Shown here: piece after piece, positions 1 through 64,000 of the stretch
How positions within the stretch are numbered: the first letter of the stretch is position 1
How the letters are laid out: the number at the start of each line of letters is the position of its first letter
Program-made: the position numbers and the translations under genes
Assembly (NCBI GenBank): GCA_014925825.1
Contig: JACGCK010000088.1
Coordinates: 62,001 to 126,000 of the forward strand
Length of the DNA: 64,000 bases
Direction: 5' to 3'
Origin: Pholiota molesta
Taxonomy: Eukaryota > Basidiomycota > Agaricomycetes > Agaricales > Strophariaceae
Notes under the pieces: generated by a model
The model's database searches: none
What the model saw: the letters and a program-made list of their open reading frames with translations, nothing else
What the model was told of the DNA's origin: nothing

Positions 1-259
1 TTCAGATAGTACGTGAGGCGCGTGAGGAGGTAAAGAATACGAGAATTCGAGGCATGGTGGTCGGGGAAGGTTGAACAGGCTCGCTGAGCGTATTCACCCA
101 ACAAATTCTCCGCACACGTGATACGTGACCTTCGGAGATCACCGACGTGGACTTAGAGCGTCGCGTCTACCATTGAAGTTTACCATTATCGGCCAACCTT
201 ATTAGACCATCGATTCAACAAAATCGTTGTCTGACGGAAGTACCGATCATGCGTAGCAC

Positions 260-660: not shown

Positions 661-864
661 ATCCTTACATTGATTAATGCCTCAATGTTCGTGCCATGCA
701 ATTGCACATGAGTGCGTTTCGCTGGATGCCAAATATATCAAGTATCAGATGTGATATCCTCGGGTGTTTGCGCTGTTCCCAATCTGCCTTCAAGGTACAT
801 ACCATATTTGCTCTTCCGTACCTCAGCTCATATGTGCGCAATTTAAATAAATCCTATATGAAAC

Positions 865-919
865 GATATGGAAAACATGTGTTAGTGTTGTGTGAGAATG
901 TATTGATAGAATTTTAGCG
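865..919 (+). promoter_or_regulatory. Shared upstream element, gene A
   Basis: GATATGGAAAACATGTG followed some 25 bp later by a TTAGCG core. Nearly the same sequence occurs at 13191-13247 (gene E) and 6963-7012 (gene C), and a shorter version at 4261-4290 (gene B). It sits about 315 bp before the ATG of gene A. It could be a regulatory site or simply flank dragged along in duplication. Confidence 0.45.
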
Positions 920-1117
920 TGCATAAATGGTTGTGTTTTCAAGTGTGGGCGTCGCTCGATCGAAATCATCGAATAAGGATGTCGTTATGTACCATTTCGA
1001 TTGAATTTGACCAAAGAACACCCTAGACACTAAGCATTATATCCCCAACAATCGGCTTACGAGGTTATACTTTTTACAGACATGCGTTCGGCCACTGGAC
1101 CGCCCTCATTTCCAAAA

Positions 1118-1126
1118 TATATATAA
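1118..1126 (+). promoter_or_regulatory. TATA box, gene A
   Basis: TATATATAA lies 55-63 bp before the ATG at 1181. All six family members have an equivalent TATATA-type box at similar distance, which supports the chosen starts. Confidence 0.55.
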
Positions 1127-1180
1127 TCTTCGCGAAACAGATGCGTCTCAACCAACTCCCTTCCGAGTTTCCTGCCCAGC

Positions 1181-1769
1181 ATGAGCGGAAACTTTACCAA
1201 CGAAGCCAAAGCGAACAAAAAACCGAATGAAGGAGTCAAATCGACGTACTTTCAAGGTGTCAAGGGCTGCAAAATTGGTTTAGGGAAATTTCGAACGATA
1301 GTCGGCAACTCGTACACTAATTATCTCCCTTCTGAGGTGGAGTCGGACAAGAAGGCGCTGAATTCGAAGTGCGACATTACGGTGACCTACTTCCCGGATG
1401 CTTCCGACGTCGACATCAAAGACGCCGACTGCGATATTGTTCTCGGCGATGCCTTCAATTTTTCTGAGCGTCGCAATGACGCTGGCAGTACCTGTATGTG
1501 CATCGCAACATCTAAATATTATTGCATTACTTAAAGCTTCAATCCACCACATAGGTAATCCTCCCGAGAAAACTAGCTCTCCGGAGGTTCTTGAACCACG
1601 AGGTTGGTATCTTAACTGGGCATTCGTTCACCCTCAGACCAGAAACGCTGAAATATCTAACCCCCACTGCATAGGTGTTCCCCCCGAGAAAATTAGCCGC
1701 CTCGATTCTATTAAACGACGACTCGGTATGTTTCTGGAATTTCATTCTCCCACAGGCCAGAAGCACTGA
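1181..1769 (+). CDS. Two-motif small protein A
   Basis: Function unknown. Exon 1 is 1181-1493 and exon 2 is 1555-1769, joined by a GT-AG intron (GTATGT...CATAG), giving 175 residues in frame. Motif 1 is at about residues 23-48 (YFQGVKGCKI...FRTIVGNSYT), motif 2 at about 69-93 (YFPDASDVDI...VLGDAFNF). No signal peptide or membrane segment is visible. The C-terminal part has PPEKTSSPE and RGWY, the latter shared with gene C. Within exon 2 the bases CCCACTGCATAG followed by GTTCC match an intron end in gene E but are read as coding here, so an old intron end may have become exon; an alternative GTATGT donor at about 1725 makes the last residues uncertain. The start is the first ATG after the TATA box. 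Confidence 0.6.
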
Positions 1770-1835
1770 AATTGCAATAGTGCCCTCTTCGAAAATCACC
1801 GTCCCAGTACAAAACCCTGAAGATTGACCCACCAA

Positions 1836-4260
1836 GACACGCGGCGTTGAGAAGGCAAGGCCCCCCTTCTTCTGAGTCCCTAGCCTAATCGGTAGGTGAA
1901 AAGTACTTCTAATTTACCAATGTTCTTACTGATAATCATTGTGCTTCCTCTTTGACTTCGCTACAGCACATTCCCTTTCCACTTACCGGCTGGTCCTGTC
2001 AGTGGAGTTGTCCCAAGTCTACGAGCACCTACGCGAAGCTTTCGTTTTAAGCTAGCCCACACAGAATAGATCGATTAAATTAGCCACGCGTCGTCATGTC
2101 TACTACACCTTGTCCTCATCTTCTTGTCCCGTGCATCTCGCTTTCAATGACATCTTCTATGTTACAGTTCAGCAGCAGAAGTTGAGGGATGTAAAGGAGA
2201 ATTGAGTCGTATAAATTCAGGGGACACAGCAAACGATGGCGAATTGCGTCCTGTGAATGCTGGTATTCTCTGTCCCTTGAATGCGAGTCTTTGGACCAGC
2301 AGCCATGAAGAAGAGCAGTCCGTGGTGTGAGGGATTCGAGACGACTCGCAGGTGGGATAGCGCTTCGACCGCGGTGCCAATGGCAATCAGTGATCAACGT
2401 TCAACTGTTATTATCACATCATCACATAACTCAGCGGGAAGTAGAACACATAACGCTGTTATAAATGAAGCAAGTCAGTGAGCGTCGTTTACAGCTGATA
2501 AATTTCTAACCCACCTTGCGTTTCCCTGACACTGCTTATTGTCGCCTTCAGCCTCATATGCCCATCCAGACGCCGTCCATGTAATTCGCTGTCATCTTAC
2601 TGAGCGAGGCTCGCATGGTCCGAACATGTGATATAACGGCGATGAAGAGGAAGGTCAAAGTCTGAAAGATTTGAGATGACTTTGGGGCATGATAGAGAAG
2701 AAGCGCCGGGGTGTGTGGTAGTGAGGAAGGTGATAGTGATATAAAGCACGGGTGTTAGAGATCAAGTTGACACGTCGCGCCGCCGGCCTTTGATAGGCAT
2801 AAACTCATAAGAGATTGAGTGAGGAGATCGCCGGCTGCAACGAAGGTTAGCAAATGATGAAAACAGAAAAACAGATGACGAACCGACGCTTGTGGGGACG
2901 TCGGCACTCTTAGTCCTATGTCCGCCTCAGTTTGGTCATATTCTCGCCTTCTTGGGGACCAACGTCGGTCTCGCGCAACAAGACATTTGCGTCGTTGGTA
3001 GGTCTACGTTGTGGATTAGCGGTTACTCACAATGACACGACATTGACAAGTAGAACACGTACAGGTTGCCACAGTGTTGAGAACCATCTTCACCATAATA
3101 TTGAGCCCAAGACATAGTCAGATAACATGAACCACAGTCTGCAGTAACGTTCATGAGCCAGAGCGACGGTTGGAAGCCGGGTACTTATATGGTTGGTTTG
3201 CGGACCTTGGCAATTGTAATGTTGACGATCAGAACTTTGATTCATCGCCCAGACAATCTTTCGGGCGCAGCATCTGTCCAAACAAGTAAGACATATTTTC
3301 CTGGTTAGAAAGAGATAGCAACATACTCGTCACGAATACACACATGGTGGACTGAGAAAGTAGAAAAAATACATGAAGCGAGGCGTTGTCAGATACTATT
3401 ACGTAACCAACATCACGCGTTTGACCCCTTTTCGCTCAATTCCACAATTTCCAGGTGATCATGAGTATAATGATGATTCCGTTACTGTCCAACCTAACCT
3501 TGGATCCGGAAAGATAACAAAACGCGTTGTCGAACGTCCTCCGATGCAGTTAAATAGTTTGAAGATCTCAGTGCTTCTAGTAGCTTATGGATATCCTCAA
3601 GGGTTTGCTGCATTTGCACACCAATTGCACACCCTCCCGGAAATAAAATATGCGGTCGAGTCGAACATCCTTCACGTCTTCCCAAATATTGTTTGTAATC
3701 CTGAGAGGTTTGACCGCTTCTTTGATCCAACTGTAATAAATTTTCGTCATGATGTATCTACGCCGAGTTCGCATGTTCGAAAATAAGCGCCCAGCATGTT
3801 TATATTGGCTGTGCCGCAATATCGGCAACCCAGTTAGCTGCCGTTATACCTGATAAGTGGTGTGTATGTGATGGCGCAAGGTCGTCTTTTCCCAATTATT
3901 ACGACAGATGATGAGGCGCGAAACGCCAAGCAGTTTCATCAGTGTCTTTCAATGCAATTACCGTGGGCCTTGGCCGTGGCCTACCACGCACAGTAGTTTG
4001 AATTAATGTTTCTTCCCCGCGAGGCAGTACCCAGCCTCATAGACTACGGTGATGAATCCTTTTTGAACGCAGTCAAAGTTTCAGGCCAGATCTCCCGAGG
4101 TGTACAGTGCAGCCCAATCTTGGTGCAAGAAATGTGTATTGCACACGAGCCTGTACTTCTGTCAGCAAACGCAAGGGCATGCGGAATATGTGCCGAATCA
4201 GCATGTTATCGCTCATGGTTTGAACAGTACTCGAAACACGTTTCGACGTTACATGCGAAT
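1836..4260. other. No supported gene
   Basis: Between the end of gene A and the upstream element of gene B, I see only short frames. The longest, at 3373-3786 (+, 137 residues), has no recognisable domain and is opposed by equally long frames on the minus strand (3494-3730, 3577-3828). The stretch to about 3360 belongs to the segmental duplication. Confidence 0.5.
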
Positions 4261-4290
4261 ACATGTTACTGTTAATAGAATTTTAGCGCT
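4261..4290 (+). promoter_or_regulatory. Shared upstream element, gene B (short form)
   Basis: ACATGTTACTGTTAATAGAA runs into TTTTAGCGC, matching the second half of the element before genes A, C and E. It lies about 350 bp before the ATG at 4613. Confidence 0.4.
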
Positions 4291-4581
4291 GGCAATATGA
4301 ATGAAGGTGTGCAGTATGTGTTTGCACACCAGATAATTCCGAACGCCATTGAACGGTATCTGGCCACATACTGGCTCAGAATTACTTAACGCAGATTGCA
4401 AAGCAAGAACAAGAAAATGTAATTCTAATAAATCTTACGATATAAGAAGACCCTCGCCTTTCATTATATGGGCAGTTTTGGCGCCAAAATATACTGACAA
4501 GTACCGGCCCACTATGATCGAGCACGAAACACATCTTTCCAACATGCCCACGCTCAACCCACGCTAAACGAAACATTGTCC

Positions 4582-4588
4582 TATATAA
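4582..4588 (+). promoter_or_regulatory. TATA box, gene B
   Basis: TATATAA 25-31 bp before the ATG at 4613, the closest of the six family TATA boxes. Confidence 0.5.
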
Positions 4589-4612
4589 GTAACATCCGCA
4601 CGATCCAAATCT

Positions 4613-5197
4613 ATGACAACTGAAGAACCAATTCCCATCCTATCTCAAATTCCCCAGATGAGCGTGAACTCTATTCCCTGCGGTGACATCGAATTCTACC
4701 CGGACGCCGAAGACTTCACCATCACGGATGGCGAATTCAATACCGTCCGAGGTAGTGTATACATCGGACCCGCTCTCCGAGAAGCGCCCCAACAGAAATC
4801 ATCACACTCCACAGGGCGAGTGACCTACTTTCCAAGAGCGAAAGGCTTCATAATTTTGGGTGGAAATTTTATGACGATAGGCGGAAACCTCTATGACACG
4901 AGGCCTCCAAAAATCCCCCCGACTAGTGCTAGTGAGGTCCCCCGCCGTGACGTACATAATACAAGTGAGCAGTACAGCATATACCACAACGTTGGTCCAT
5001 CGCCTGACACACGAACAATTTTCTATCAACAGACGCGAAATCTACTGGTGAGACTTGCTTGCCCGTATCCATGCCTAGATCGCAATGTTGAACGTAATAA
5101 CCAGGCTCCCATCATCGGCGCTGGCAAAAACAAAGTGAGCAGTCTGTTAAAAAAAAAAAGTCAGCATTCATCGAAGTCAATAATTGAATTTATATAG
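4613..5197 (+). CDS. Two-motif small protein B, divergent
   Basis: Family member with the least conserved motif 1 (FYPDAEDFTI...FNTVRGSVYI, about residues 27-52) and a clear motif 2 (YFPRAKGFII...FMTIGGNLYD, about 71-96). The unspliced frame is open for 194 residues. Donor-like GTGAGC sites at about 4967 and 5139 suggest that real introns exist and that the coding sequence continues to exons near 5200-5250 and 5453-5704, but I could not find one fully consistent splice path. Function is unknown. It lies between A and C, same strand. A longer N-terminal leader than its relatives is present, with a second ATG at residue 16. Confidence 0.5.
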   Translation: MTTEEPIPILSQIPQMSVNSIPCGDIEFYPDAEDFTITDGEFNTVRGSVYIGPALREAPQQKSSHSTGRVTYFPRAKGFIILGGNFMTIGGNLYDTRPPKIPPTSASEVPRRDVHNTSEQYSIYHNVGPSPDTRTIFYQQTRNLLVRLACPYPCLDRNVERNNQAPIIGAGKNKVSSLLKKKSQHSSKSIIEFI

Positions 5198-5452
5198 GAT
5201 CATCGCTACACGAACAGCATACTATGCCCAGTCCGAGTCGTGCAGGTATTTCAACCTTTTTAGTGACGGAATCATCGAATATTTTATCCAAATCTTATTT
5301 TGGGTTTAGCGTCTCGAAAAATGACGCAGCAATGGACAGGCCAGCAGAAAAACAACATGATAGCCTCAGATGTCAATGACATGGTGCGGCAAATAGATGT
5401 TCGACCATTTTTATTATACATATATCTATCTATCTTTAACACATTACTGCAG

Positions 5453-5704
5453 ACTGCCTGTGATTCTTCTGCTCCAGGAGAATTTCACTGTCAGAACACG
5501 GTCGAAACCAATCCGTTCCAATGTCAAGCAGATGATATCAGACGCTCTAATCCATTTCTATCGCAAATGCCTCAGCCCATTACTTTTTCTGTCGCTGATG
5601 CGGAGACTCCACGTCAACCTCTTTATGAATCCCCGACATCAGAAAATGCTTGGAATGGCTCGCACTATGCCCAGTCTACTCCGCCCGTTGCTACTTATAA
5701 GTAA
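5453..5704 (+). CDS. Possible last exon of gene B
   Basis: An AG acceptor (ATTACTGCAG) precedes an open frame that ends at TAA at 5704. It contains CDSSAPGEFHCQNTVETNPF and the PQPITFSVADAETPRQPL stretch that also appears in the orphan tail at 337-561. Its presence 3' of gene B in the same direction suggests it is part of B. Linkage to the first exon is inferred only. Confidence 0.35.
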   Translation, partial: TACDSSAPGEFHCQNTVETNPFQCQADDIRRSNPFLSQMPQPITFSVADAETPRQPLYESPTSENAWNGSHYAQSTPPVATYK

Positions 5705-6962
5705 ATCAGGAAGTATATTATATGGGGGCCATTGGTAAGTTCCGTGCCTGCCTACCATCCATTCTAATCCTCTGATATCTCCTCGCATCCACAGTTATCA
5801 GGTCGAACGATTTAATTCGGAGACTTGATGGGTTCTATATTTATTCCCACCGTTTAGAAGCTTATTACAGTTTTATCTGACGAAGGTGCTTGACTCTTGC
5901 TTTATCTATCATCCTCATATATCAATATACCAATGTTTGTAATGTATGATTATTCATAACTACACCTCGTTGGATCCAAGGAAAAATATTAGGTGCAACC
6001 ATGCAGTCTCTTCCCCAGCTTGTGTCTCTCTGTCGTGTCTTGCATTGGTTTCCAATATCTAAGGCATGAATCCTCCATTCCTCAAATTTGAAACGCACCA
6101 TTTTCAAGTATGGAACTAGCTGTCCCAGCGTGGCCGGCGGGCGTCGGCGGGCGTTTCAGGATAAGACCAACAATCCCCACTTTAGCCGCGTCTAGGTAAT
6201 TGGGGCTCCATGTTTGAAAGGGCACTTTACGGCGCCTGCGCATGCCGACGCACACTTGACAATGGACGTGCCAGCGTGTACGCTGACACGCCGACACGCT
6301 TATGCACGCCGGTGCGACGCTGGGCCATGTGAGAAAACCAACGCCCGAATCAACTCTTTTCTAGCCATATCATATAATCTCTAATTCTCCCCGTACGATA
6401 CAGCGTTGGGGCAGGTCAATTTAACTTTTCCTAGGAGCTTGGGATCTGGCGAGGCTCGGGAACGCGTCGAGCGGGTGCGCGCCGGGCAAGCACGCGATGG
6501 CAGGAGGCAAGGCAAGAGGATTTGTCACAACAACGCGCACACCTACATTCAAACATACTGCGCTACCGATGATATCTAATCTAATCCAGTCGCCATCAGC
6601 TCGGGCCAGTTGGGCCAGAGGCCACTACTATGGCATTGAACGATTTCAATTATAAATCTCAGATCACTCCTTCGTTGGTCCGACTTAAGTATGTGTATTT
6701 GGCAGATGTCTTCTCCTGGACCATTCCATAATGTCAGCATAGATGATATGTCCAGCAGTGCGAGCCGTTCTCCTGGGCCGCAGTATTCCTGAATAGAATG
6801 CTCCAGTCATATGAAGTTCTTCGAAAATCTCGATTACAAATTTCCATAGGATTCCACGGGTCAGGTAAGGCAAGAAAACAAGAACTTACATCCCTGATAT
6901 GCGCGGCATTCATAGATCATATTAAGAGGAAAAAGTAAGGTCATACACTGTGTGTATACCAA
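5705..6962. other. No supported gene
   Basis: The block near 5825-5850 (GGGTTCTATATTTATTCC) matches the 3' flank of the orphan tail at 582. The rest, including a GC-rich patch at 6110-6320 with repeated CCGGCGGGCGTCGG and CACGCCGACACGC words, has no frame I would call a gene. Confidence 0.45.
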
Positions 6963-7012
6963 GATATGGAAAACATGTGTCGAATGAATGCAACTATTAA
7001 TAGCCTTAGCGC
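6963..7012 (+). promoter_or_regulatory. Shared upstream element, gene C
   Basis: GATATGGAAAACATGTG, then ATTAATAGCCTTAGCGC, in the same order and spacing as before genes A and E, about 345 bp before the ATG of gene C. Confidence 0.45.
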
Positions 7013-7246
7013 CCAGAAATGTTTATGTGTGTGCGTCGTACAATAGAAACCCTTGGGAAACTTGAATGGGTTTGATTATATATCTCGTGCATTGCGTAAA
7101 TCTGCGCAAATAGGAAGCTTGACAATAGCTCCTGTCGCCGGCAGTCGGCTGATGATAATATCTGAGATTAGACTCATTTAGGGCAAATGTTGACAGGCTT
7201 GCTACCTCTATGCTTGCCACCTCCGAGCGGCGCTTTCGCAAAGTCC

Positions 7247-7253
7247 TATATAT
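7247..7253 (+). promoter_or_regulatory. TATA box, gene C
   Basis: TATATAT 55-61 bp before the ATG at 7308. Confidence 0.45.
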
Positions 7254-7307
7254 TGTATACGTACTCAATACCCCTCTTCAACAACGACTTTCTCCCAACC
7301 ACCCAAG

Positions 7308-7812
7308 ATGAGCAGCAACGCAACTGACGAAATTAGCACTGCGTTCTTCGGAAATGCTACAGCATTTAACATTGGCCGTGGGCGCTTCCGTACTGTCGCG
7401 GGCAACTCATACACAGGCTGCCAGCCCACCCGGCAACAATTGGACTCGAAGGCGCCGTCGCCTACCAAGTCCACAAACGTTTACTTCCATGGGGCTTCCA
7501 ACTTCGAAATCTTCGAGGGCGATTTCGATACTATTCGTGGCGATGCCATCGATTTCCCTTGGCATCACAACAAGGGTACTAGTAAGTTGTTCCGAATATT
7601 TGGGCATTTTTCCGTTACCATGTCTGACTCAATGGCTAAATATTCCTGCAGAGAAGAATAGCGAATTTCTCAAAACACGAGGTTGGTACGGCTTCGAAGA
7701 TTTATTCACCTTCAAACCAAAAACTGATTATCAAAATGGCGTAGGACTTGCTTCACGGGATAGCGTTCCCGTAAAAACGCTGGAAATGAACTCCTCAAAG
7801 CACGAGCTGTAG
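7308..7812 (+). CDS. Two-motif small protein C
   Basis: Cleanest family member. Exon 1 is 7308-7581 and exon 2 is 7652-7812 (GTAAGT donor, CCTGCAG acceptor), giving 144 residues in frame. Motif 1 covers about residues 13-38 (FFGNATAFNI...FRTVAGNSYT) and motif 2 about 59-83 (YFHGASNFEI...FDTIRGDAID); equivalent aromatic residues are 46 apart. The linker is rich in Gln, Ser, Pro and Lys. The C-terminus contains LKTRGWYGFEDLF, recalling EPRGWY in gene A. No signal peptide, membrane helix or enzyme domain is seen, so the motifs are the only obvious functional part. Function is not known to me; an assembly or oligomerisation role is inferred from the repeat form. Confidence 0.65.
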
Positions 7813-9530
7813 CGCAGGCCGCTTCGTAAGAAAACACTTCCGCTGAAGACGACACCTCTTTGCCAGACCCGGCCTTCACATGGTGCGAAGTATTCTCAAC
7901 ATACATATCTCACGGCTAACCTTATTTATTTATTCTGACTCTTGAACGTTCTTTCAACCGTTAATGATGTCAATACAGTTGACCTTCTTTAATGATTCAT
8001 GAACACCATGCGAGGATTCTATATTTGTATATGCCCGCACGGGGCGCATCGATCAGATTGAATTCACCTTCTATCACACCTCGAGCTCGTTCCTGTCGTG
8101 CTTTTGCATATGCTTCAATGTGAAATTGCACCCTGGGACTTTGCCTCGTCTCGACTTTGCCTCGTCTCGTACCGCATGTTGATTAATTTTTGAGGCATTA
8201 GAAAGCTTACGATTGGATGTTAGACCCTCAGCCTCAGCCCTTTGAAAGTTCTTCGTGATTTTCTTCCACTTCTACATCACGCCTGTCCCCAGGCAACGCA
8301 TGATGCGATAGACGGTGGCAGTGATTAACGGTGCTGTAAACAATCTCTCCAGGACGAAGTCACAATATTATGGTATTGGACAAGAATCGCTTTTCCACAT
8401 TCGACCACGGGTTTGCATACAGTTTCTAAATGCTATCAAGATACTTTGTAATAGAAATCTTGAGCGTGTTGTATGCTACGAACGTAAGTAACGCTGGCTT
8501 CCAAATTCTGCAGTGCAACTGCAGTGCGTTACCCTCTTTTCGCTCATTTTCTTGTTCACGCAGCTTATATCATTGACATGTTTCAAGTTATATACAATAG
8601 CTATAACATTAAGTATGTGTTCCAGCCCCACTTGATGTCGCCAAAACGTTTCTGTTCTTCCCGCTGGGCCCTGGCTTCGTGCGACGACGTGCACTAGGTC
8701 ATGTCGGCCAGTGACGCGGTATTAATACCGGCCGGAGTTTCGGAACCTATTTCTGTTTGTCACACGTTTCGATTCGTCTTGGTAACTTGGTTACACCTGC
8801 TTTTTCAACCCACTCTGCGGACGTCCACCATGATGACTATTTCCTCATAGCTTGTTATTGGAAAGACCTTCGAGTGCAAGAGCTTTTCGCATTGTATGCC
8901 AACCTGTGGCCGACACTTCCTGGGCCTGGATCACCTTGGCCGACTCGCTCTGCGCTTGCGATCCCTTGTTACATGGCTATCCTAGACCACCTACCTTTCT
9001 GCGCCAAACTGAACCTGTATCTCTAACTTTCGTCGCTAGAGGCCACCATACATTACCTCCACGTTGGCTGGGAATAGACCTCTTCACCGGAGTGGCTTGC
9101 GCTTACTTGGTTCGTCCAATGCTACGTGGGCATACCTGACAAAAGTAGGCGGGTTGGGGTGGGAATAATCAACGATCGACGGCCTGCCTCGAGGAGAGAG
9201 GAAACTCTGGAGTCAACTGCGCTTTGATTGGATGATCCTTCAAGCCTTCAAGGCTTCAGCTCTCGTATGGTACGAACTGATCAGTGTGCATCATGACGCC
9301 AACCGTGCTCACACCGGGCAGTCTTTCTTTCTCCATGGTGCACCACAGAAATCTGTGGCCTTCATACGGTACGCGAGGCAATCGCCCCCTGTCGATATCT
9401 CTGCTTCGGCGCATTGTAACAGCTACCTTGTTACATTTATAAAATTCAAATCACCCGTTCCCATCAAGGCGCAGTGAGCTTGTTCTATACTGACAACGAC
9501 CGCGATCTTTCTTTAAACGGTTACTCTGTA
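7813..9530. other. No firm gene; possible degenerate mobile-element relic
   Basis: Overlapping frames at 8757-9139 and 9232-9477 on the plus strand contain blocks that look like protein remains (for example LGIDLFTGVACAYLVRPMLR), interrupted by stops and frame changes. I could not assign a family. Nothing else is supported here. Confidence 0.3.
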
Positions 9531-9539
9531 GACATGTCA

Positions 9540-9547
9540 TATATAAA
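9540..9547 (+). promoter_or_regulatory. TATA box, gene D
   Basis: TATATAAA 52-59 bp before the ATG at 9599. Confidence 0.5.
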
Positions 9548-9598
9548 GTGCCATGAATCTTCATTTATTCCCATCTTCTTCCTTTTCAATGACCCGAC

Positions 9599-9896
9599 AT
9601 GGATCCATCGACTAACGTAGAATTCTTCACTGGCGCTAAAAACTTTAATATTCGGAATGGACGATTTCGCACAATAGCCGGCAACTCGTATACTGGCTAC
9701 CATCCTCCACCGGCTTCGCCTCCCCAAGAGCGGCCGCCTATGAGCAGCAGGACGTCCTTCTTTTCCAAGTCTTCCAATTTTGAGATTGGTGGTGGAGAAT
9801 TCGCCGCAATAAACGGCGATTCCTTTGACATCCCACAATCCTTCGATACACCTGGGCCTAGCTTGAATGATGGATACAACGACCCCAATCATAGTG
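9599..9896 (+). CDS. Two-motif small protein D, first exon
   Basis: Encodes MDPSTN followed at once by motif 1 (FFTGAKNFNI...FRTIAGNSYT, residues 9-33) and motif 2 (FFSKSSNFEI...FAAINGDSFD, residues 54-77), with a Pro-rich linker. A GTGAGT donor at 9897 ends the exon. Unspliced reading stops two codons later, so splicing is likely. Candidate downstream exons lie between 9989 and 10588, with frames containing NMTPARVDVAQAINV and GRGNVLQFAEP, but I could not choose one path. It is most like gene F in sequence and linker. Function unknown. Confidence 0.6.
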
Positions 9897-10101
9897 GTGA
9901 GTAGCTCTAGCATCTTGTATTTTTATGTTGCCATTACGAGCACAATTGTCTTCGACTTGCCTTACTCTAATACTACGTGGAACAAGCTTCGCGGGAGCCA
10001 CCTGAGGATATTGGGCAAATAAGGAATGTTCCTGATTACACGTGTATGACTTCAAGTTGTTCATCTATCTTGAATACCGAACCTCTAATCGAAGCCCGTG
10101 G

Positions 10102-10588
10102 CCGTTAGTTACTTCTTCTGCAGAGGGGCAGGAGATGCTCAATATGACGCCAGCTAGAGTTGATGTAGCTCAGGCCATCAATGTCTGTGTCGACGACATG
10201 CACCTCTCATCCTTCCTTAACTCAACGATGCTAGGACGCGGACAAATCCTCCAGTTCGTCTCCCGGAATAATGCATCCTGAAAACACAGATCAATGGAAC
10301 CCACCTCAAGTGCGAACGTCTCAGGCCGTTCATCCTCTTGCCGACGTAGTCGTCGAGCCAACACTTCTGACATCGCCGATGTCATATAGGACAACACCGG
10401 CGCAGTCTAACAGTTCTGGACCTCTTCCTATAGGAGACGAAGGCATTCCTGCTATACAAGGTAGGGGAAATGTTTTACAGTTCGCAGAGCCTCGTTCATA
10501 TTCCGAAAACCCAAATTATCCTGATACCTCGCCCTACACTCTCCTGAAGGTTTTCGAACACTTGAGACGGATCCTCCATCAAGGTTGA
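10102..10588 (+). CDS. Possible downstream exons of gene D
   Basis: After a TTCTTCTGCAG acceptor at about 10101, two overlapping frames continue to 10281 and 10588. Each contains a GRG(Q/N)(I/V)LQF word, a short internal repetition that suggests coding. Whether they join the gene D first exon is not settled. Confidence 0.3.
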
Positions 10589-10898
10589 CACGTCGCAAGT
10601 ACCTTGACGGCTCTCATCTCCTTTGAAAGCTAACGTTGCTGAACCTAGTCTGGAATTGGATCAAAAATATAGCAACAACTCAATGGCATCGCTTGCCTTT
10701 TGTCTCTGGTTCGAACGGAACCAGAACTTGAACGCGAGTCGCTACCTAGTCGGGAGCTTATTTATGTATCTTATAATTTTTATCATTGCTGATGTCTTGG
10801 AATCGATGAACAAGCTGGAACATGGGCTCAATCACCCTGTCAGTTTATATTTTTTTTCTTGAAAAAAGAGGGTAAAAGATGTGCGCAACGCACGATGA

Positions 10899-11888
10899 TC
10901 ATGCTGATCTGGCATCAAATGCAGTCGTTACACGGCGGTAGAAGACAAAGAGGGGGGTAGTAAACTGGAAACTATAGGTCCTCGAAGAGCTTGATGATGT
11001 TTCATCCGTCAGAGAGCCACAGTCAGAACAGTGAGCACTGCGCAGGGAAGTTGCGACAGAAGGAATGAAGAGACATGAGGCAGATCTCGTAGTAAAGCCT
11101 GGCAAATTCAAGCCACTCGATGACGCGCAGACCAGACAGCAGGACGTGTGCGTGGTGTATGCGTGCAAGTGCGAGAGGGACATGGAAAATAAAAGTCAAC
11201 GCAAGGCTAGTTTCCCGAGGGCAGAACTCCGATAAATCGACGATATCAACGAAGAGGGAAACCTGCAATCTTCAATGAATTTCAAAGGGCGCAGGAATCG
11301 ATACTTGATATCATCGTGTTGCGGGATATACGCAACTGTGTCGTGTCGTTGGCGCCAGGAAGGTCGGCTACTATCTACCGCTGCCACGTAACGTGTACGA
11401 GGTCCGCTGCGCCCACTTCGTTCTCGTCGTAGACCAATACAGCTTGGATGAAGATACGAGGGATTACATCAGCAGAGAAATTTTAGGCGAGGAAGGAAAC
11501 AACGTGAGAGAAGCTGAATGGCGAGGATATGTGTACGCCCTAGAGAGTGAGGTACGCTGAACGCGCCTGCCAAAATACTCCTGCATAGCTTCCTTGGCCT
11601 CGGCGTCCAGGTCTCAAACGGCGATGAAGGAAATATATGTTCGGGGAGAGAGCAGAAGTACGTATCAGGCAACGCATTTTCGTACACCATTACGTAGTGA
11701 GGACTGTATATCGCGTGTAGCCGAATATCATTGATCAACCAAATGATGCCAGCTGCTTCTTCCAAGTTGTCATCGATGTCATCTTCAATCATTCTTGAGT
11801 TTGAAGCTTTAATCTTCCGTGCAGCATCGAGTTTAATCGCCAATTTCTTATTGAAAATATGCGCTTTTTGATGCGCTTTTTGATACAA
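10899..11888 (-). CDS. Unidentified minus-strand coding remains
   Basis: Frames at 11469-11888 (139 residues), 11196-11387 and 11023-11268 follow each other on the minus strand and could be exons of one gene. Plausible protein blocks include DIDDNLEEAAGIIWLINDI, RFLRPLKFIEDC and LALARIHHAHVLLSGLRVIE. I recognise no family. Part of the 11.69-11.81 kb sequence is repeated near 16.2-16.3 kb, which argues that this is duplicated, possibly decaying sequence. Confidence 0.25.
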
Positions 11889-12401
11889 GATCGTCTTCCT
11901 TTCAATTATGGCGAAATACAGTCGACTCTAGATGTGAAGGTATCTGTAAAGGTCTGTGATGAGTCTCGCCAGTTCCATTGATGCGATTACCCTCAAATTC
12001 AACAGTGCTCCAATTTTACGCTACATGCGGACGCGGAGGCACCGTTTCACCATATTTCATGACTCATGCACACGAGCCATCTTCTCGGGAGTTGGCACCA
12101 TGCAAATGTGGTCGAACGTCCTCAATCGTAAAGTCGAAAAACAGGACTACAATAGAGGCAATTAGTTGATCAATGTATGTTAGTGACAGTGATTGCTGCG
12201 TTTGGCACACCGTCCTAGACTTTGACATTGGTAAGCTATTTTTAGATGTAAACGAGGTAAGATTTATTAAGTCCACATCTTCCAACGAAGTCCAAGGCCT
12301 CAGGCTTGGGACACCGGTTCAACAAAATAGTCGTCTTACGGTGCGTGCGGAACCAGCGTGTTTGCTCAGAGAATCGATTGGGGAAACATATTGGCTTCAT
12401 G

Positions 12402-12432
12402 ATACATGTTTCTGCCAACAGGACTTTAGCGC
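12402..12432 (+). promoter_or_regulatory. Orphan upstream element without a gene
   Basis: ATACATGTTTCTGCC...GACTTTAGCGCC resembles the element before gene B. Instead of a TATA box and coding exon 300-350 bp later, the sequence runs at about 12500 directly into the block that in copy 1 (259 onward) corresponds to the 3' end of a family member. This is what a deletion of a coding unit would leave. Confidence 0.35.
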
Positions 12433-13190
12433 CAACGAATATAAACGATGGTGTGCAGATGGTGTGCAGTATATATTTACACACTAGTTAATTTGTACCG
12501 CAATTGATCAGAATTGATTAACATGCAATTCTTTCAACTCTAGAATCCACCTCTCCTAAGTGAGCCTGCCCATCAGGACAACGTTGAAATGAAACTCGTC
12601 AATCCTATGTCATAGTACTTGAGGCGGCTTGAAACGCACATAACCTATTTCCATTTTTGCTAGTAAGCATATCTTCGGCTGGTATGTTCAATGAGGTATT
12701 TCGCTGAACTTATCTCCTGTCCCCAACCACTTTAGATACACGGCGGGTTCTCTGTTACCCGACCTGCCCAAAAGACTACGGCTCGCAGAACGGTATCAAT
12801 CAGATTACGCTTGAGTGTGTTGCTTCTCCTAAATTGTCTCAATCATTTCAGCCTCAATTCAGAGACCCAGAGATCTTTTCCGAGCATGAGGCTCAGCAAC
12901 GCCTGATAGACTGAGTTCTATATATATATTTCTTCCCTTCCAGTTCAACGACTGAGTTAGATCCCTATCTGAAAAATGACAGCACTGTTATTCACATCTT
13001 TACATCTATTAATGCCTCAATGTTCGGGCCCACACAGCTGCGCGTCGCTGGATCCCAAATTATTATCAGATGTGATCTCCTCGGGTGTTTGCGTTTCTCT
13101 GTTCTGCCCCATCTGGCTTGAAGATTGACCGTACTTGTTGCTCTTTTGTACATGGGCTCATACGCAGCTTATATATGCCCTGTATATAAT

Positions 13191-13247
13191 GATATGGAAA
13201 ACATGTGGTAGCGTTGTGTGAGAATGTATTGATAGAATTTTTAGCGC
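13191..13247 (+). promoter_or_regulatory. Shared upstream element, gene E
   Basis: GATATGGAAAACATGTG to TTTTTAGCGCG, nearly identical to 865-919, about 300 bp before the ATG at 13490. The following 100 bp (TGGGCGTCGCTCGATCGAA) also match copy A. Confidence 0.5.
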
Positions 13248-13425
13248 GGATGAATGGTTGTGTTTTCCAATGTGGGCGTCGCTCGATCGAACTCATCGAA
13301 GTCGACCGAACTTGAACAAAGAACACCCTAGAAGCTACGCATTATATCGCCAACAATCGGCTTACGTGGTTGTACTTTCTACAGGCATGCGTTCGGCCAA
13401 GTGTATCGGCCTCTTTCCCAAAACC

Positions 13426-13433
13426 TATATAAT
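13426..13433 (+). promoter_or_regulatory. TATA box, gene E
   Basis: TATATAAT 57-64 bp before the ATG at 13490. Confidence 0.5.
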
Positions 13434-13489
13434 GTTCGCAAATCCTATACCTCTTAACTAACAAGTCCCTTCCAATTTTTCTGCCCAGC

Positions 13490-14231
13490 ATGATCTCAAA
13501 CTTGCCCGGCGAAACCAAGGCAAACAGAAAACCGACTGAGGAATTCAAAGTGGCGTACTTTCAAGGTTCCAGTAACTGCAAGATTAATTCAGGGAAATAT
13601 CGTACGATACGGGGAGACTTACACACTAACTATCCTCCTTCTGAGGCGAAGGCGGAACAGCAGGCGCCGACTGCTTCGAAGTCGGCCCAGCAGACGCCGC
13701 CTGCTACAAAGTACGATATTACCTACTTCGCTCAGCCTTCCAAACTCGATGTCAAAGACGGCGAATTCGATACCATTTTCGGCGATGTCTACGATTCTTC
13801 CGAGCATCGCAATGAGCCTGGCAATACCGGTATGTACATCAACATTTAGATATAATTGCCGTAAAATTCTCTAACTCACTGCATAGAAGCTCCTGCCGAG
13901 AAATCTAGCTCTCCCTTATATCCTCAACAACCAGATCAGTATTTAGCTGAAAGCGGCGATTTCGATACTGTTCTCGGCGATGTCCGCAATTCTTCTGAGC
14001 AGCGCAATGGTCCTGGCAGTACCAGTATGTACATATCAAGATATTATCGCATTAAAATTTATAACCCACCGCATAGAAGTTCCTCCCGAGAAATCTATCT
14101 CTCCCTTATATCCTCCACAACCAGGTCGGTATTTAGCTGAAAATTCGTCGACTAGAAACGCTGAAAATGTCATAGCGCCTTACATCTTCCCAGCACACAA
14201 CGCTGGAGACGGAATGGTTCTTTTTCTTTGA
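13490..14231 (+). CDS. Small protein E with an extra half motif
   Basis: Paralogue of A inside the segmental duplication. Three exons: 13490-13829, 13887-14024 and 14077-14231, 210 residues in frame. Motif 1 (YFQGSSNCKI...YRTIRGDLHT) is near residues 24-48; motif 2 (YFAQPSKLDV...FDTIFGDVYD) near 79-103. Exon 2 is 138 nt, flanked by phase-1 introns, and encodes a third, half-length motif copy (GDFDTVLGDVRNSSEQRN) like the end of motif 2 (GEFDTIFGDVYDSSEHRN). Exons 2 and 3 begin alike (PAEKSSSPLYP, PPEKSISPLYP) and both introns start GTATGTACAT and end GCATAG, so an exon-intron unit was duplicated. The linker has a small AQQAP/AQQTP repeat. Function unknown. Confidence 0.65.
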
Positions 14232-17030
14232 ATCCGCAGACGTAGACTAACACGGTAGGTGCCAAGTCTTTCTTAATTTAACAATTTCTTGTTTATAATG
14301 ATTGTGCTTCGCTACAGCGTATTTTCTTATCGCTCCGGCTGGTCCTGTCGATATAGTTGTCCCAAGTCTACGAACACTACGCGATTAGCTTTAGTTGTAC
14401 GCCAGCCCATGCAGAACAGATCGATTAAATTAGCCACGCATCCTCTACTACGTCTACTATACTTTGTCTCCATGCGCCTCGCTTTCAATGAGATCTTATA
14501 TATTATCCTCTTTTAGAGACAGCGGCAGACGTTGAAGTGTGATGTTAGAGGTCATAAAGCATAAGGTATACGTATGACCGGGGCGCACTCGCATCCAAGA
14601 GCAAGCACTGTGGCTGCCAGGATTCGGAGGTGAAAGGGAGATGGACGCTGTGGATCGATTCACATTATCATAAATGATCACACCTATCGCGCACGCTAAC
14701 AGAGCGTTTTTCTCAAAAAAATTTCCCATGAACGATTCATGCCTCTAAACACCTAGAGTTGGGTTTTAGACTTCGCTGCGAACTGTCAACTAGTAGCCCA
14801 AATGTTCCCTCTGACTTACGGATCCAGACGACATTGAATCGATCAAAGCCCAGGAACGTGGTTCACGAAAAAAAAAGCAGGATCTCTGCGTCTTATACAG
14901 CGTGGAATTTGCACAGAAATAGAACGTGAACGGGCTAAAGGATGATTACATTAATAGACGTGGGGGAGACTCATAGGACACAACACCGCGCGTCATATAT
15001 CGTCCAGAACTGAAAAAGTCATGCCTAAGCTTCAGGCACAATCGGCGATCTCCCGTGCGACATACGCAGAAAAACTGTTTGTCTGCGGCGCGGGTTTGTT
15101 ACGAAAGAAGAAATTCCGAGAGAACACATGCAAGGGACTTGGAAACATGAGGGAGAGGCCGAGTAAATGGGTTAGATGACGGCGGAGGAGACGATACTCG
15201 CAGATACTTCGACATGGATACGAAGGGAAATGAGGGAAAATTTGGGTTGTCCATGCACAAGCTCTTCAAGTTGATACGATATAAAGAGAAAGCAGTATGG
15301 AGAGAAAGCAGGAGAGAGATTTAGAGGAGAACTTGCTCGTGTATAATCAGACGACAGGATTCCAGAGATGGCGAATGGTGTCCTGCGAATGCTGATATTC
15401 CCGTCGGGTCGTCCGTCACGACGTGTCCATATCGCTTCGCGTCATCCTTGCCAGCTCGCTTGTTGACCCATCGTGCATCAGCAACGAAGAAAAAGAAAAA
15501 GAACCCCGTGACGCGAAACTCGCAGGTGGGCTAACGCTTTCGCCGCTGAGTTGGGTGATGGCTTGGTGACAGTCGACGTCGAGTCACGACGCTTGATAGC
15601 GGTATGTACGCTGCTAGGGTTTCAAGTGCTATTGGCACGGCGGTGGGTGCAGAACACATAGAACTGGTATGATAGAAGTAGGTCGGTAAACATCGTTTGC
15701 CGCGGGGCTGATGGATTTCTGACCCACCTTGTGTTTTACGTCGCATACGGAGCTCATGTGGTCACTGTCAGCTCCCCTGACATTCCTGCTTATTGTTGCC
15801 CTCCATCCAATATGTCCATCCAGACACCGTCCATGCAATTCGGCGTCGTTTTCTGAACTCGCTCGATCAAGCTACTAGAGGGACGGTTGGAAGTCGGGTT
15901 TACAGTTGGTTGCTAGTTGGCTATCTAAGCTTTGATTTATCGCTTTTCAAAGGCAGCATCTGTCCAGACAAGTAAGTGACATTATCTTGGATAGAAAGCT
16001 CAAAGAAATAGCAACATACGCATGACGATACAAGCATGGTGAATTGAGAGTCCAACTGGCTGATACTTCAGCAGAAGGTCGTGTGCTTTCAGATACTTAG
16101 TATATGAAGAGATACGCTCATAAAGAATATGTGAGTTTGAAGCATAGTGAATGGGGAAGTTGACAAGGCGCGCTCATTGACAGCACATTTTCTCAAACCG
16201 TTACGTAAGCAGGGTACTTATTTCCCACGTAGCCGAATGCAAGCCGAATGTACAGCTTTCTTCTTCCCAGTTCCTCCAGAGCCCTCAGTCTTCAATCATT
16301 CTTGAAACTTGAACATTTGTTCGACCCACGTAGCAGAGGTCGGTCGTCGTATGGGTACTCGAAGGACAGCCACCATCTTGAAAATATACTAAGCGCAGAC
16401 ACTGTCTTGATGCTTTCAGCTCAGCCAACGGGCTCCTATTAACCCGTGAGCTTTATGTGGCGCCCACGCAAGTCCTTTCTGCTCCACTCCAATTGGGATG
16501 AGTCTGTAGCGGTCAACGTCGCTTGGTACCATCGATTACGATACCTCTTCTCCGGTCGTATCTTTCATTTTTATGACCTTGCTTTCACGTACACCTTGCA
16601 TCCACCATACTATAATAGGACTCATACATTTGCCTTTTGGCGTACGAAATGTTAGGTTCTATCACGAGGCTGACTTGGCATTCATCTTTCCGTCTCTCCT
16701 CCAATGTCAATGGTGTTTTCAGTAGTTCCCGTGCCGGTAGTTGTTGAGATGTCGTGAACATCCACCGTGCGACTTATGGACAATGCTCAGGCGTTGCCCG
16801 TGCGCTTAGTCGTCGCGTACAAAAGGCCAAAGCACTTAATGCATTGGCCGCCTTCATTTTCCCTCGCTAGCTCTGCCTGCGTGTTCGGACATTCGGGCCT
16901 CTGTGGCCCTGAACCAATTTGTAGAATAATAATATATATACCGTAGATATTTTCCCCCTCACCTCAGTCGTTTGTTACACGTCTGAGGTGAGCTATTTTC
17001 CCCCGTCCTCATACTCTCCTTACTTACAAG
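14232..17030. other. No supported gene
   Basis: To 16060 this is duplicated flank. Between 16060 and 16960, short plus-strand frames (16248-16442, 16446-16655) are interrupted and unassigned. The 16180-16310 stretch repeats part of 11.69-11.81 kb. Confidence 0.4.
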
Positions 17031-17126
17031 TACCTAGTATTATTCTCTCTGTCTATACAGGTACTTAATCTACAATATAGTCGTTTGTTACACGTCTGAG
17101 TATTATTCTCTCTGTTTATACAGGTA
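16967..17126. repeat. Interleaved short direct repeats
   Basis: GTCGTTTGTTACACGTCTGAG occurs at 16967 and again at 17080. TATTATTCTCTCTGT followed by TATACAGGTA occurs at 17038 and again at 17101. Together they form two nearly matching units of about 60-110 bp, likely a small local duplication. Confidence 0.6.
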
Positions 17127-17256
17127 TACATTTCTACAGTAGTTTTCAATGATTGACATACTTGATATCTGCTCGGCGACGTTTCAGGTTTGGGTTGGTT
17201 GTTAGCGCGTTAAACGCGTACTTGTCGCGAATTAGAAAATTCTTCATTCTTTTTTC

Positions 17257-17814
17257 TCACTTCAATTTCACGACCTTCCCTGTGACACACATGATAGATG
17301 CCTGGTCGATGTAGGTATTATTGACATAGCTCGGAGCATCGATATTCTTATAGTCGCATAAAGTGAGCCTCCAGTTCAAGTTTGTGTCGCAGCAGAGCTC
17401 TGCGGGAAGACGACAAGTAAGTTCGAATTCGATACTGATGTCCTCTTGTGTTACGGAGCTTAATCGATCCTTGTTATGTGATATATCGTTCAAGTTATAC
17501 CCGGCGGCTGAGACACGTTATGTGTTCCAAAGTGTTGCTCTCCAGCCAGGAAACTCATCTCCGTCGATGACGTCAATCGGAGGCACGAAGCGTAATTTCC
17601 AGATTCCCGAAAAATTGCGATTCGTCGATATGTAACTACTTAGCTGCGTCCTCCACATCTTTCCAAGACGGAGGCCGCTGACAGTCCCTCTTGAAGCTTG
17701 GAGAGCGACGACTGCGATGTACCCATACATCAGACTCAAATGACTAGTCACTACTATGCTTTCCTGATCAGAATTCCCTGATGTCCGCCCATTCCTGTAG
17801 ACCAACGACACCAC
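17257..17814 (-). pseudogene. Unidentified frame with one internal stop
   Basis: On the minus strand one reading frame is open from 17814 to 17257 except for a single TAA at about 17515. It contains LSLMYGYIAVVALQASRGTV, KLRFVPPIDVIDGDEFPGW and, after the stop, ISIEFELTCRLPAELCC. The mixture of alternating hydrophobic stretches looks like a beta-rich domain, but I know no match. A CACAG acceptor-like site precedes the frame, so an upstream exon is possible. It could be a recently broken gene, or the stop could lie in an unrecognised intron. Confidence 0.35.
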
Positions 17815-19018
17815 ACTGTGTTACGTGTCTTTACGAAATTTATTAGGCTCATCGTCGTACTTATCCTTCGCTCTAGAGCTGTCGTTCCTTCCATGAGTAT
17901 TACTGTCCCCAAGTTTCTTCGCTACACTCCACTTCTACACGTCATCAGCCGTGTTTAGACGCTAATAATTATTGTGGGACTGAGAATCATCGATCATCAA
18001 GTGGCTTGAGCATTGCAATCGACGTTGTTGGAGTCTGGAGTGCATCATCCCAGCATATAAGGGAGCACGATTCTTTGCATTCGACTGTTTACTGTTCTTT
18101 GTGCCGCACCCTAGGTGACCACAAAGAGTTTGAAAGATCGCCGATCGATGACGGCCAAGGGCCTCGAGGTCAAGGAATATGATTCTAGGTTAAATTACGT
18201 TCTACCCCATAGGAATTCGCCGATTCTATCTTGCCACGATTTGTTATCGCATTCCGCTGCCTTCCTCGCCTCTTCACATCGATTTTTACCTGGTGTTGTA
18301 CGTGAGACAGTAGCTCAGGCTTTGGTGTGTTGTGCCGCAGAGCACAGTTTCGCTAATAATTACCTGCAGCGTTTTAATTTTAGACGACACTGCGCCTAAT
18401 GGCACCTTGGGAGTATCAGTAAGTTATTCATCTTCAACCCATTGCTTAGGCCGCTCAGACACCCTCAGAATACAAGGCACTTCCACGCTCAAGCTTTCAT
18501 AGTATATATGAATTCGAAATTGAACTGAATGTTGTTCCTCGCAATCTATTCCTGTCATCCTCATTAAATTCAGTGACGGCGGTGGAAGTCATATCGGTTT
18601 TTACCGTGCTTTATCGTCTGAACGACCTGACGTAGTCAGATCCAAATACCCTTTCTACACCGCACGATACTCTTTCCTGAATCACGGAGTATTTAACTGC
18701 CATCACAGTGTATCAGCAGCTATGTGGCCACGACTTACAACTCTAGACAGCGCCCATTATGCGATGGTAGTGTGCTAAAGCTCGTATGAAGCGCAGGTAA
18801 AATTAGCTGTAATAGTAGACCGAAATGTTTCAGTCATGAATCAGGTGCCCGGATATTTTACGATTGAGTTTCGACCGATATACGTAGCAATCTACTCTTG
18901 ATACATACTCTACGTTTTGTAAAAGATCCTGCTAAAAAAAAGTGGCGCAGAAGGTGTGAACTGCACTGCTAATAGAACCTCGTTCCATCCTGGTAACACC
19001 ATATATGTAGCATGTACA

Positions 19019-19025
19019 TATATAA
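19019..19025 (+). promoter_or_regulatory. TATA box, gene F
   Basis: TATATAA 44-50 bp before the ATG at 19069. Confidence 0.5.
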
Positions 19026-19068
19026 GCTGGCGTGGAACTCTGTTCCTCTCCAACCCTCCATCCCTTGC

Positions 19069-19378
19069 ATGGAACCAATGATCACCGTGAGCTACTTCAC
19101 CGGGGCTAAAGATTTCACCATAGGAAACGGACGCTTTCGTACTATACTCGGGAACTCTTACACTGGCTGTCATCCTCAATTCGTATCCCCTGTCCGGGAG
19201 CGGCCGCCCGTCACCTGCAAAACGTCGTTTTTTGCCAAGTCTTCCAACTTCGATATTCGTGGGGGGATTTCTCGGTTATAAATGGGGACGCCGTTGATCT
19301 GGGACCCGGTTTCGATGTTCCCGGGCCCACGAATCTTGGATTGAACGGCGATTACGAAGTCAACAATAATGGTGAGTA
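19069..19378 (+). pseudogene. Two-motif protein F, frameshifted in motif 2
   Basis: The start, motif 1 (YFTGAKDFTI...FRTILGNSYT) and Pro/Val-rich linker closely follow gene D. In motif 2 the frame shifts at the run of six G at 19261-19266, so the reading frame ends a few codons later at 19281. In the neighbouring frame the family pattern resumes (DFSVINGDAVD) and continues to a GTGAGT donor at about 19373, as in gene D. One base is missing relative to the relatives. Short intron-bounded blocks continue to about 20.1 kb, but I found no consistent exon chain. It is a broken gene unless the G run is a sequencing error. Confidence 0.55.
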
Positions 19379-21320
19379 GTTCTGAATATCTGAAGTTTTG
19401 CCACGGCGAGCGTAATGGAAAGATCCTGCTCCCCAGATTGATGGGAATCAGCATCAGTATAGTCTCGATGTTCCGCAAGGTTAGCGCATTTTTTGGGCTT
19501 CGTGGATTCCTATCCTGAGTTTACGTAGAAATGCCTTCGCTTGCCCAACTCGAGGACACTGGACCGCAAACTGGCGAACATAATTCAGGTATATAACACA
19601 TTCGTCTATTAGAAAGACCCACCTCCTAATCGACCCTTGGTATTGTTAGCCGCGCCTCAAGAAGGCACCCAGGGGCTGGGGGATATGGTACATTCACGTA
19701 TCGGTATAGTTTCGCAGTCGATAAATGTTGTGTCAATCAAATTTATACGTCCGTTCACTAACCGAAAATTTCTAGGCCGCTGATGAATCCTATGATGCAC
19801 CTCCTTTGGAAAAAATCGAGCATGAGCACGCAGTTCATGCGAACCCGCGTCGTGGACCAGCTGACCTCGTTCCCGCTGGAAGCGAAGATGCGTATGCAAC
19901 CCGTAAGTGGGTTTCTCAACCGGCATTAAGGCCTCATTCTTATTCACAGCACGCCAACCGTAATAATGATAGATATCATCCCGGCCCGTCTTGCATCTCC
20001 AGAAGGTCATGAGAATGAGAATGCCTCCAAAAAAATACCAACGGATGAGAACATGACGCCTCCGCCGAAAAAAATTACGAAGACGACCTGGCGTATGTGT
20101 TCCCACCTTCTTCAACTCGCATAAAGTTCTCATGTCGTTTGATTTAGCCATGAATTGGCTCACCAGCATAGGCATAGGGAATGGGACCAGTTTATGGTCC
20201 ATCCTGCGCCCTACCTCTTGGCGTGGTGGGCTGTGTACTTGAACCCAAGTCGCATTCCAATTGGGAGATTCGTTTATTTTATCATCGCTACCGGTGGAAC
20301 TCGTCACCACTTGCACACCGTACTCCATTCATTTTTTACGACTGGTCACTGATGATATAATTGTCAGTATTTCCAGCTATTGCCGTAACGCGAGACCGCC
20401 TGGGCTTTTCGCTCCAGTGACGATGTGGTCTGGTGTGGGGTCGCGAATCGCAAGTAGTGTCTATCTGGGTGGAGTTTGGCGACATGACGCAGGCCGTGTT
20501 CTCGCTCGTGCACGAAGCTGCATGATGCATCCCTTGCTATATTTCTCTCCAATTTTTTGCTGTGTTTAGTAATTTAAGACCCAATCTACGCGACGATCCT
20601 GCTCTGCCCCACTTCACCATGCCACTTGACGTCAGAACAGTGGACAACGCCACGCGAACGAAAAGTACGAGGCGGTCTAGCCTGGCCTTGCATTTTGACA
20701 AGAATGATCAGAGAATGCTTCTGATGGGGTGCTGCCGTGCTGAAGTATTCTGAGACAGATTTGAAGAACATATGAGCCGAAGTACCCTCGCTCATATTAA
20801 TAATGAACTCCTTAGAAAGCAGGAACTATGTATAAGCAGCGTCCCATTCGCGATCCAATGTTACACTTCAAACGCAAAATATGTCAGATTTGACGTTCAC
20901 TCGACTTTTCCCCGACTTCCACCGGACATTTACCCGATTTTGCGTTTTTACTGAGCTTCACAGGTTTGTATTCACGCAATGTAGATGATTCGGTCCGACA
21001 GGATCATATGTATACTTGATTGCCTAGGCTATTGTAGACTCGTCTGGACGAGTCTGGAGTCTGGAGAATTATGGATAGGACTTCTAAGTTCTAACCGCAA
21101 AATTACGACTCAAGAGATACCAAAAGCTCGAGCTCTTGTATATTTATGGGCGATGCAAAGGACTCAATAGGCGATGAGCAGCAGCGAGCAGGGCCGGCGG
21201 CCAGGCGCCGGCAGCCCAAACGACATGCCGCAATCAAATAAGGCCAAGCGAACCTACTCGGCGCTCTCACTCTGCCCGCTTCGTCGTCCATCCATCCCAC
21301 ACCAAGTAGCAAAGCCCGAG
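19379..21320. other. No firm gene
   Basis: Splice-like blocks on the plus strand at 19.44-20.13 kb may be decayed 3' exons of gene F. A 223-residue minus-strand frame (19657-20328) crosses them but has no recognised domain. Nothing further to 21.32 kb. Confidence 0.35.
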
Positions 21321-63985: not shown

Positions 63986-64000
63986 CTGTGGGGAAAGACA

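Follow-up and report, generated by a model that had tools for sequence, protein, structure and literature searches.

We analysed a stretch of 64,000 nucleotides (hereafter the window) from the genome of Pholiota molesta, a saprotrophic-type Strophariaceae mushroom. It corresponds to positions 62001-126000 of contig C613 in an assembly of 65.6 Mb and 625 contigs. The first 20.4 kb of the window hold a cluster of six plus-strand genes, g1 to g6, each of which encodes a motif of 25-27 residues twice. An earlier note on this DNA had proposed six two-motif paralogues, and all six open reading frames (ORFs) were found where it had placed them and could be aligned with each other, except that g6 has a frame that is broken inside motif 2 in the window and open in its allele on a second contig, C400 (at 39578). 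The first exon of g1 spans 1181-1492 (motifs at 1241-1321 and 1382-1462), that of g3 7308-7583 (7338-7418 and 7476-7556), that of g4 9599-9898 (9617-9697 and 9752-9832), that of g5 13490-13831 (13550-13630 and 13718-13798) and that of g6 19069-19376, with motif 1 at 19087-19167. For g2 (4613-5701; motifs at 4688-4768 and 4820-4900) NCBI provides a gene model, P0009, of 253 residues with a disordered tail. NCBI returned gene models for both alleles of g2 and three family copies located elsewhere than in the window, and none for g1, g3, g4, g5 or g6. The comparison covered the contigs C613 (189,831 bases), C400 (302,061) and C101 (519,140); looking beyond the window, family copies were located at eight places on C613 (42237 to 137211), nine on C400 (two of them partial) and two on C101 (one partial).

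The first exons of g1 to g6 encode some 92-119 residues, in which both motifs follow the pattern [F/Y][F/Y]xxAxxFxIxxGxFxxIxG[ND], and a G[DN] ending is present in 19 of the 20 family motif copies. The motifs begin at residues 7-26 and are thus N-terminal, not C-terminal. The start-to-start spacing, previously put at 45-46 residues, is about so in g3 (46), g4 (45) and the open g6 allele (45), but it is not uniform, being 47 in g1, 44 in g2 and 56 in g5. Motif 1 and motif 2 formed separate classes in all ten copies compared, with a mean identity between genes of 0.59 for motif 1, 0.52 for motif 2 and 0.34 between the two. The ratio of non-synonymous to synonymous polymorphism (pN/pS) in four equal-length copies was 0.17 and 0.23 in motifs 1 and 2, respectively, and 0.79 across the linker, so that the motif codons are under purifying selection and the linker hardly is. 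For six group-A copies (g4, the g6 allele, C101, C400:128k, C400:85k and C613:137k) the corresponding substitution rate ratio (dN/dS) of the first exon was 0.14-0.37 in 14 of the 15 pairs, the fifteenth being saturated. Furthermore, a TATATA box was found 31-64 nucleotides upstream of the ATG in all six genes, against a background of 0.23 TATAWA per 150 nucleotides in window positions 1-20000. Because of the first-exon dN/dS, the difference between motif and linker and the six promoter boxes, the family is more than a chance pattern; it is real, selected and haplotype-variable.

The window and C400 are collinear, with identities of about 73-99.6% across the aligned blocks, and we took C400 as the other haplotype. 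It carries alleles of g1 (near 7348), g2 (P0008, at 24976), g4 (28280, 98% identical) and g5 (near 34239). A counterpart of g3 is missing from C400: the segment 5761-7880, which holds this gene, is absent, and its flanks 3622-5760 and 7881-8312 abut at C400:26120/26121. The haplotypes thus differ in gene content and in the intactness of g6, the frame break of which could possibly be a sequencing error. Between the alleles the first exons differ by five residues in g1, four in g2, two in g4 and five in g5, and the synonymous/non-synonymous counts were 0/5, 1/5, 3.5/2.5 and 5/5, respectively; these are too few, and we therefore make no claim of positive selection. Downstream of g5, the positions 13950-14142 (plus strand) hold a partial repeat of its motif-2 half, seen as self-similar blocks in the comparison with C400, and partial family copies were located at C400:128811 and C101:94704. 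The locus is undergoing turnover; in line with the change suspected earlier, the cluster is not invariant between the two haplotypes. Between the g1 and g2 alleles, C400:10059-23996 is an insert of about 14 kb that is absent from the window haplotype; it has terminal inverted repeats of 1.15 kb, 99% identical, and an apparent 7-base target duplication, and looks like a recent DNA transposon. Elsewhere on the same contig, C400:133788-139998 contains two sets of ORFs arranged as mirror images, one of which matches DUF6589 (PF20231); they would represent a palindromic repeat, a mobile element or an assembly artefact.

Decay at the locus brings up the explanation that the family is debris, namely the N-terminal exons of decayed genes for NOD-like receptors (NLRs). 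Decayed copies do exist, as illustrated by g6 in the window and by the second copies C400:128811 and C101:94704. However, family members have two motifs and NLRs one, the motifs are under strong purifying selection, the genes have TATA boxes of their own and the tails of the gene models are unlike NLRs. This explanation was already disfavoured, and we regard it as the most remote of those considered.

In a Pfam scan none of the six first-exon pieces matched a family at cut-off, and the gene models P0003, P0005, P0006, P0008 and P0009 had no precomputed Pfam domains. Based on these Pfam data no HeLo, HeLo-like or other death-inducing domain was recognised in the family proteins, and NACHT was absent as well. 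The g4 protein gave no match to PDB sequences up to E 10, in line with the earlier impression that nothing else is recognisable in these proteins. The family profile gave nothing significant in the PDB, and known folds or enzyme families were not matched, also in fold searches with the family models. A right-handed beta-helix of the alginate lyase type was considered as well: its profile match, the best in the PDB, was not significant (E 0.22), and Foldseek with the P0005 model gave 0 matches up to E 10. Searching 5.8 billion proteins with the family profile yielded 11 matches at E 10 or better: one from the window itself, five gene models of P. molesta and five proteins from JGI metagenomes. 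None of them came from P. conissans or Hypholoma, though the database holds NLRs of both; distant relatives could be missed in this search because it needs shared 5-residue words. No sign of secretion was seen, nor of an effector function towards a host, and the idea of an effector-like secreted family is not supported.

AlphaFold2 modelling of g4 (14 sequences) gave a mean predicted local distance difference test score (pLDDT) of 54 and a predicted template modelling score (pTM) of 0.32, with the strands arranged alike in the two motifs. For full-length P0005, encoded at C400:85k (10 sequences), the mean pLDDT was 55 and the pTM 0.27, with predicted strands at residues 6-12, 15-19 and 22-28 and again at 57-63, 66-70 and 73-79, disorder at 79-163 and helices at 194-216 and 221-238. 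A confident globular fold, which would have spoken for a monomeric protein, was not predicted, and the beta strands appeared at low confidence. The three-strand repeat fits a beta-arch rung, and also a hairpin meander.

The helices of P0005 (block pLDDT 63-79) would agree with executioners of a new kind, in which N-terminal amyloid assembly exposes a membrane-active C-terminal tail, and the tail of P0005 is in one frame in both alleles. The peak hydropathy over 19 residues is, however, only 1.26-1.41, and the frame changes ahead of the last helix in C101, C400:128k and g6, so that splicing would be needed to reach it. In addition, the tails are only weakly constrained (dN/dS mostly 0.3-0.9), and that of g2 is different and disordered. 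We therefore consider such an executioner role quite improbable. Two plus-strand tail blocks of g6, at 19987-20082, with weak constraint, and at 20150-20236, the last tail block, were recognised by tblastn similarity to the P0003 tail. The minus strand at 19660-20328 has an antisense ORF of 223 residues across this g6 tail, and similar antisense ORFs lie over other copies; these were interpreted as arising incidentally from the coding sequence on the sense strand.

The earlier note had placed motifs of this type in front of Agaricomycete signalling proteins, and a related motif was found at the N terminus of NLRs in P. molesta and beyond. At least 88 NACHT matches were scored in the genome, out of 213 first-look candidates, and the 1.2 kb upstream of 20 of them was examined. 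A GGxF motif in register, about 300 nucleotides before the P-loop, was present in 14 of these 20 NLR upstreams (12 without two near-duplicates), and a stricter scan gave 14 sense-strand rows, including a single one out of register, with 0 antisense. A search with one NLR linked to a family gene returned 1,514 proteins, of which the 120 matches listed were analysed; 62 were kept, having a recognisable P-loop with at least 75 residues before it, and 58 were dropped. Among the matches listed, the pattern [IVFTLM]x[GSD]GxF, which was picked once the motif had been seen, occurred before the P-loop in 44 of the 62 NLR proteins and after it in 1, and the motif-bearing proteins include those of P. conissans and Hypholoma sublateritium.

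A hidden Markov model (HMM) built from 12 NLR upstream motifs ranked g4 first (E 0.0046) and g2 second (E 0.0059) among 1,914 window ORFs, with g6 fourth (E 0.24) behind one unrelated ORF (E 0.23). The match is to motif 2, which in g4 scored 13.5 bits vs 1.8 for motif 1, and the best of 50 residue-shuffled windows reached 10.3 bits vs 13.6 and 13.3 for g4 and g2. On C400 (4,091 ORFs) eight ORFs were above inclusion: five were N-terminal exons of NLRs and three were the g2, g6 and g4 alleles. Conversely, the family HMM placed sense-strand motif exons in the top five among 791 NLR-upstream ORFs (best E 8.9e-4), and it matched five of the 120 listed NLR proteins at E <= 1, the best being P0110 of P. 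conissans (E 1.9e-4). Profile-profile comparison of the family and NLR motifs gave E 5.9e-4 with a score of 13.93, which was reached by 0 of 100 column shuffles. Because of the profile rankings, the shuffles and the profile-profile result, the two motif sets are likely, though not beyond doubt, related.

The profile similarity to the NLR motifs is weak, and this would also suit small beta-rich proteins unrelated to NLRs that have converged on a G-x-F-x-x-I strand-turn pattern, perhaps with a structural or beta-helix fold; the top PDB profile match, although not significant, is indeed the beta-helix lyase. Convergence would not easily account for the reciprocal ranking among hundreds to thousands of ORFs, nor for the sense-strand and positional specificity and the physical linkage to NLR genes, and we consider it unlikely.

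This linkage was observed on several contigs. On C400, NLR N-terminal exons at 91427, 97593 and 103847 (plus strand) and at 121735 and 126806 (minus strand) sit between the family copies at 85120 (plus) and 128349 (minus). In all five downstream ORFs NPHP3_N (PF24883) exceeded its cut-off, and NACHT scored 26.0-30.7 bits, one of the five falling just short of the NACHT cut-off of 26.7. From the family gene to the motif-bearing NLR exon downstream on the same strand, the start-to-start distance is 6.3 kb at C400:85k and 5.6 kb at C613:137k, and the same-strand distance is 1.6 kb at C400:128k and 2.0 kb at C101:95k. As C400:85k and C613:137k are presumed alleles, and likewise C400:128k and C101:95k, these represent two independent places. 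The metagenome contigs of P0002, a family protein, and P0018, an NLR, are both 11,949 long, which points to this linkage being present in another strain as well. Just upstream of the C400:85k copy, two related minus-strand ORFs of 352 and 454 residues (C400:80263-81318 and 82783-84144) had no Pfam match; they start with MHISHGSYEV and MLITNGGSFSV, have C-terminal stretches of the form SVNxGSxNVSxVSISNCGNxxSVI and may carry another amyloid-like motif.

Taken together, the family proteins are likely effector-less partners of motif-bearing NLR immune receptors. As to how they act, we tentatively favour stand-alone adaptors or amplifiers, since they are without a recognised death domain, and rank a decoy function second. 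As read from the sequences, an NLR has one copy of the amyloid-like motif at its N terminus and a family protein has two, with a loose linker between them. By analogy with NWD2 and HET-S, activated NLRs would cluster and their motif would fold as a beta-arch, on which both motifs of a family protein would be templated as two rungs of a stack. The family proteins could then extend the polymer and hand it on to other motif-bearing proteins. Besides the related motif in NLR N termini, the reciprocal profile rankings and the linkage, it was counted in favour of the adaptor or amplifier role that selection keeps both motifs and not the linker, and the tails weakly.

Several observations weigh against this role. 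The nearest NLR seen lies some 56-80 kb away from the cluster of g1 to g6, with ordinary genes between. An effector carrying the motif was not found, and the end of the pathway is therefore missing. In addition, g1, g3 and g5 were unlisted by the NLR-motif HMM up to E 10 among the window ORFs, and none of the five NLR proteins matched by the family HMM is a linked NLR, so the family-adjacent NLRs are not the best matches of the family profile. The similarity of the motif sets is modest, as one column shuffle scored 13.83 vs 13.93 (the next 10.03), and the G[DN] ending of nearly all family copies is absent from many NLR motifs of the genome. The AlphaFold confidence was low for both models.

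Effector-less copies of a signalling motif often act as threshold-setting dampers. Accordingly, the double-motif proteins might be decoys: by capping the amyloid seeds of NLRs, or by absorbing them, they would determine the level at which NLR signalling starts. An effector domain was not recognised, the motif module is constrained with nearly free tails, and copy number and intactness vary between haplotypes, as a threshold-setting buffer would. However, this pattern fits a damper and an amplifier alike, and we judge a decoy function to be rather unlikely.

Among other ORFs of the genome, three of 902-908 residues (C612:35655, C20:124180 and C161:42404) had sub-threshold MLKL_N matches; 2 kb of C612:35655 contained no match to a family-type motif. 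Further neighbours in the window are an anthrone-oxygenase-like ORF (27589-28032), a tetraspanin-like ORF below cut-off (34971-35789) and, at 60897-64000, SLIDE and SNF2 domains of an ISWI-like remodeller.

The HET-s prion-forming domain consists of two non-identical repeats with a flexible linker, as described in the available text of PMC7889193. The earlier note had compared the cluster with this layout, and the comparison agrees with what we found: two non-identical pseudo-repeats with conserved Gly, a hydrophobic-polar pattern and a flexible, fast-changing Pro/Ser/Gln linker. In HET-S/NWD2 of Podospora anserina and other HET-s-related amyloid motif (HRAM) systems, as described in PMC7889193 and PMC9815663, one motif at the NLR N terminus is likewise paired with two pseudo-repeats of about 21-27 residues and a flexible linker in the partner, and the partner gene is near an NLR gene at two of our family loci. 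This likeness rests on descriptions of layout, the family profile search of the PDB having returned no HET-s. In contrast to HET-S, the family is without HeLo, is tandem and multi-copy, and is putative as regards its amyloid nature. Because a death domain is lacking and the motifs are not C-terminal, we did not file it as a HET-S-type effector.

On the receptor side, the closest published counterpart is the NLR05/08/22/29/44 group, which with 689 sequences is the largest motif group in the survey of Wojciechowski et al. 2022 (PMC9815663). According to the sections of that survey available to us, the group is basidiomycete-specific save a dozen matches, with dozens per strain, and its motif, located at the extreme NLR N terminus, has a core of about 25 residues with three N-terminal hydrophobics and a G[DN] bigram; the survey proposes that this motif is a HET-s variety, and Table 1 gives 0 neighbours and 0 effectors with it. 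The family motifs share the 25-residue core, the three hydrophobics and G[DN], as judged from the published description. The motif is a single NLR-side copy in that group, whereas here it is doubled in separate genes without NACHT. A stand-alone double-motif partner is also not described in the available parts of PMC12881547 and PMC12261475. The proteins found beside motif-bearing NLRs are thus a concrete candidate for the partner gap of the survey. One could go further and see in these multi-copy, haplotype-variable, effector-less putative amyloid adaptors the partners that have been missing for the large motif group of Agaricomycete NLRs, a tunable relay between one-motif NLRs and possibly an allorecognition determinant, but as a whole this proposal is doubtful. 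The HeLo proteins of Sphaerobolus and Gymnopus, as presented in the available text of PMC9815663, are similar in that an Agaricomycete amyloid-like motif, there of HET-s type, is doubled in a genome with single-motif NLRs. They differ in having HeLo and in that the nearest NLR is 95 kb away, whereas the family genes are as near as 1.6 kb. The layout suggested by the P. molesta family is one of a one-motif receptor and a two-motif partner, without a HeLo executioner on the same protein.

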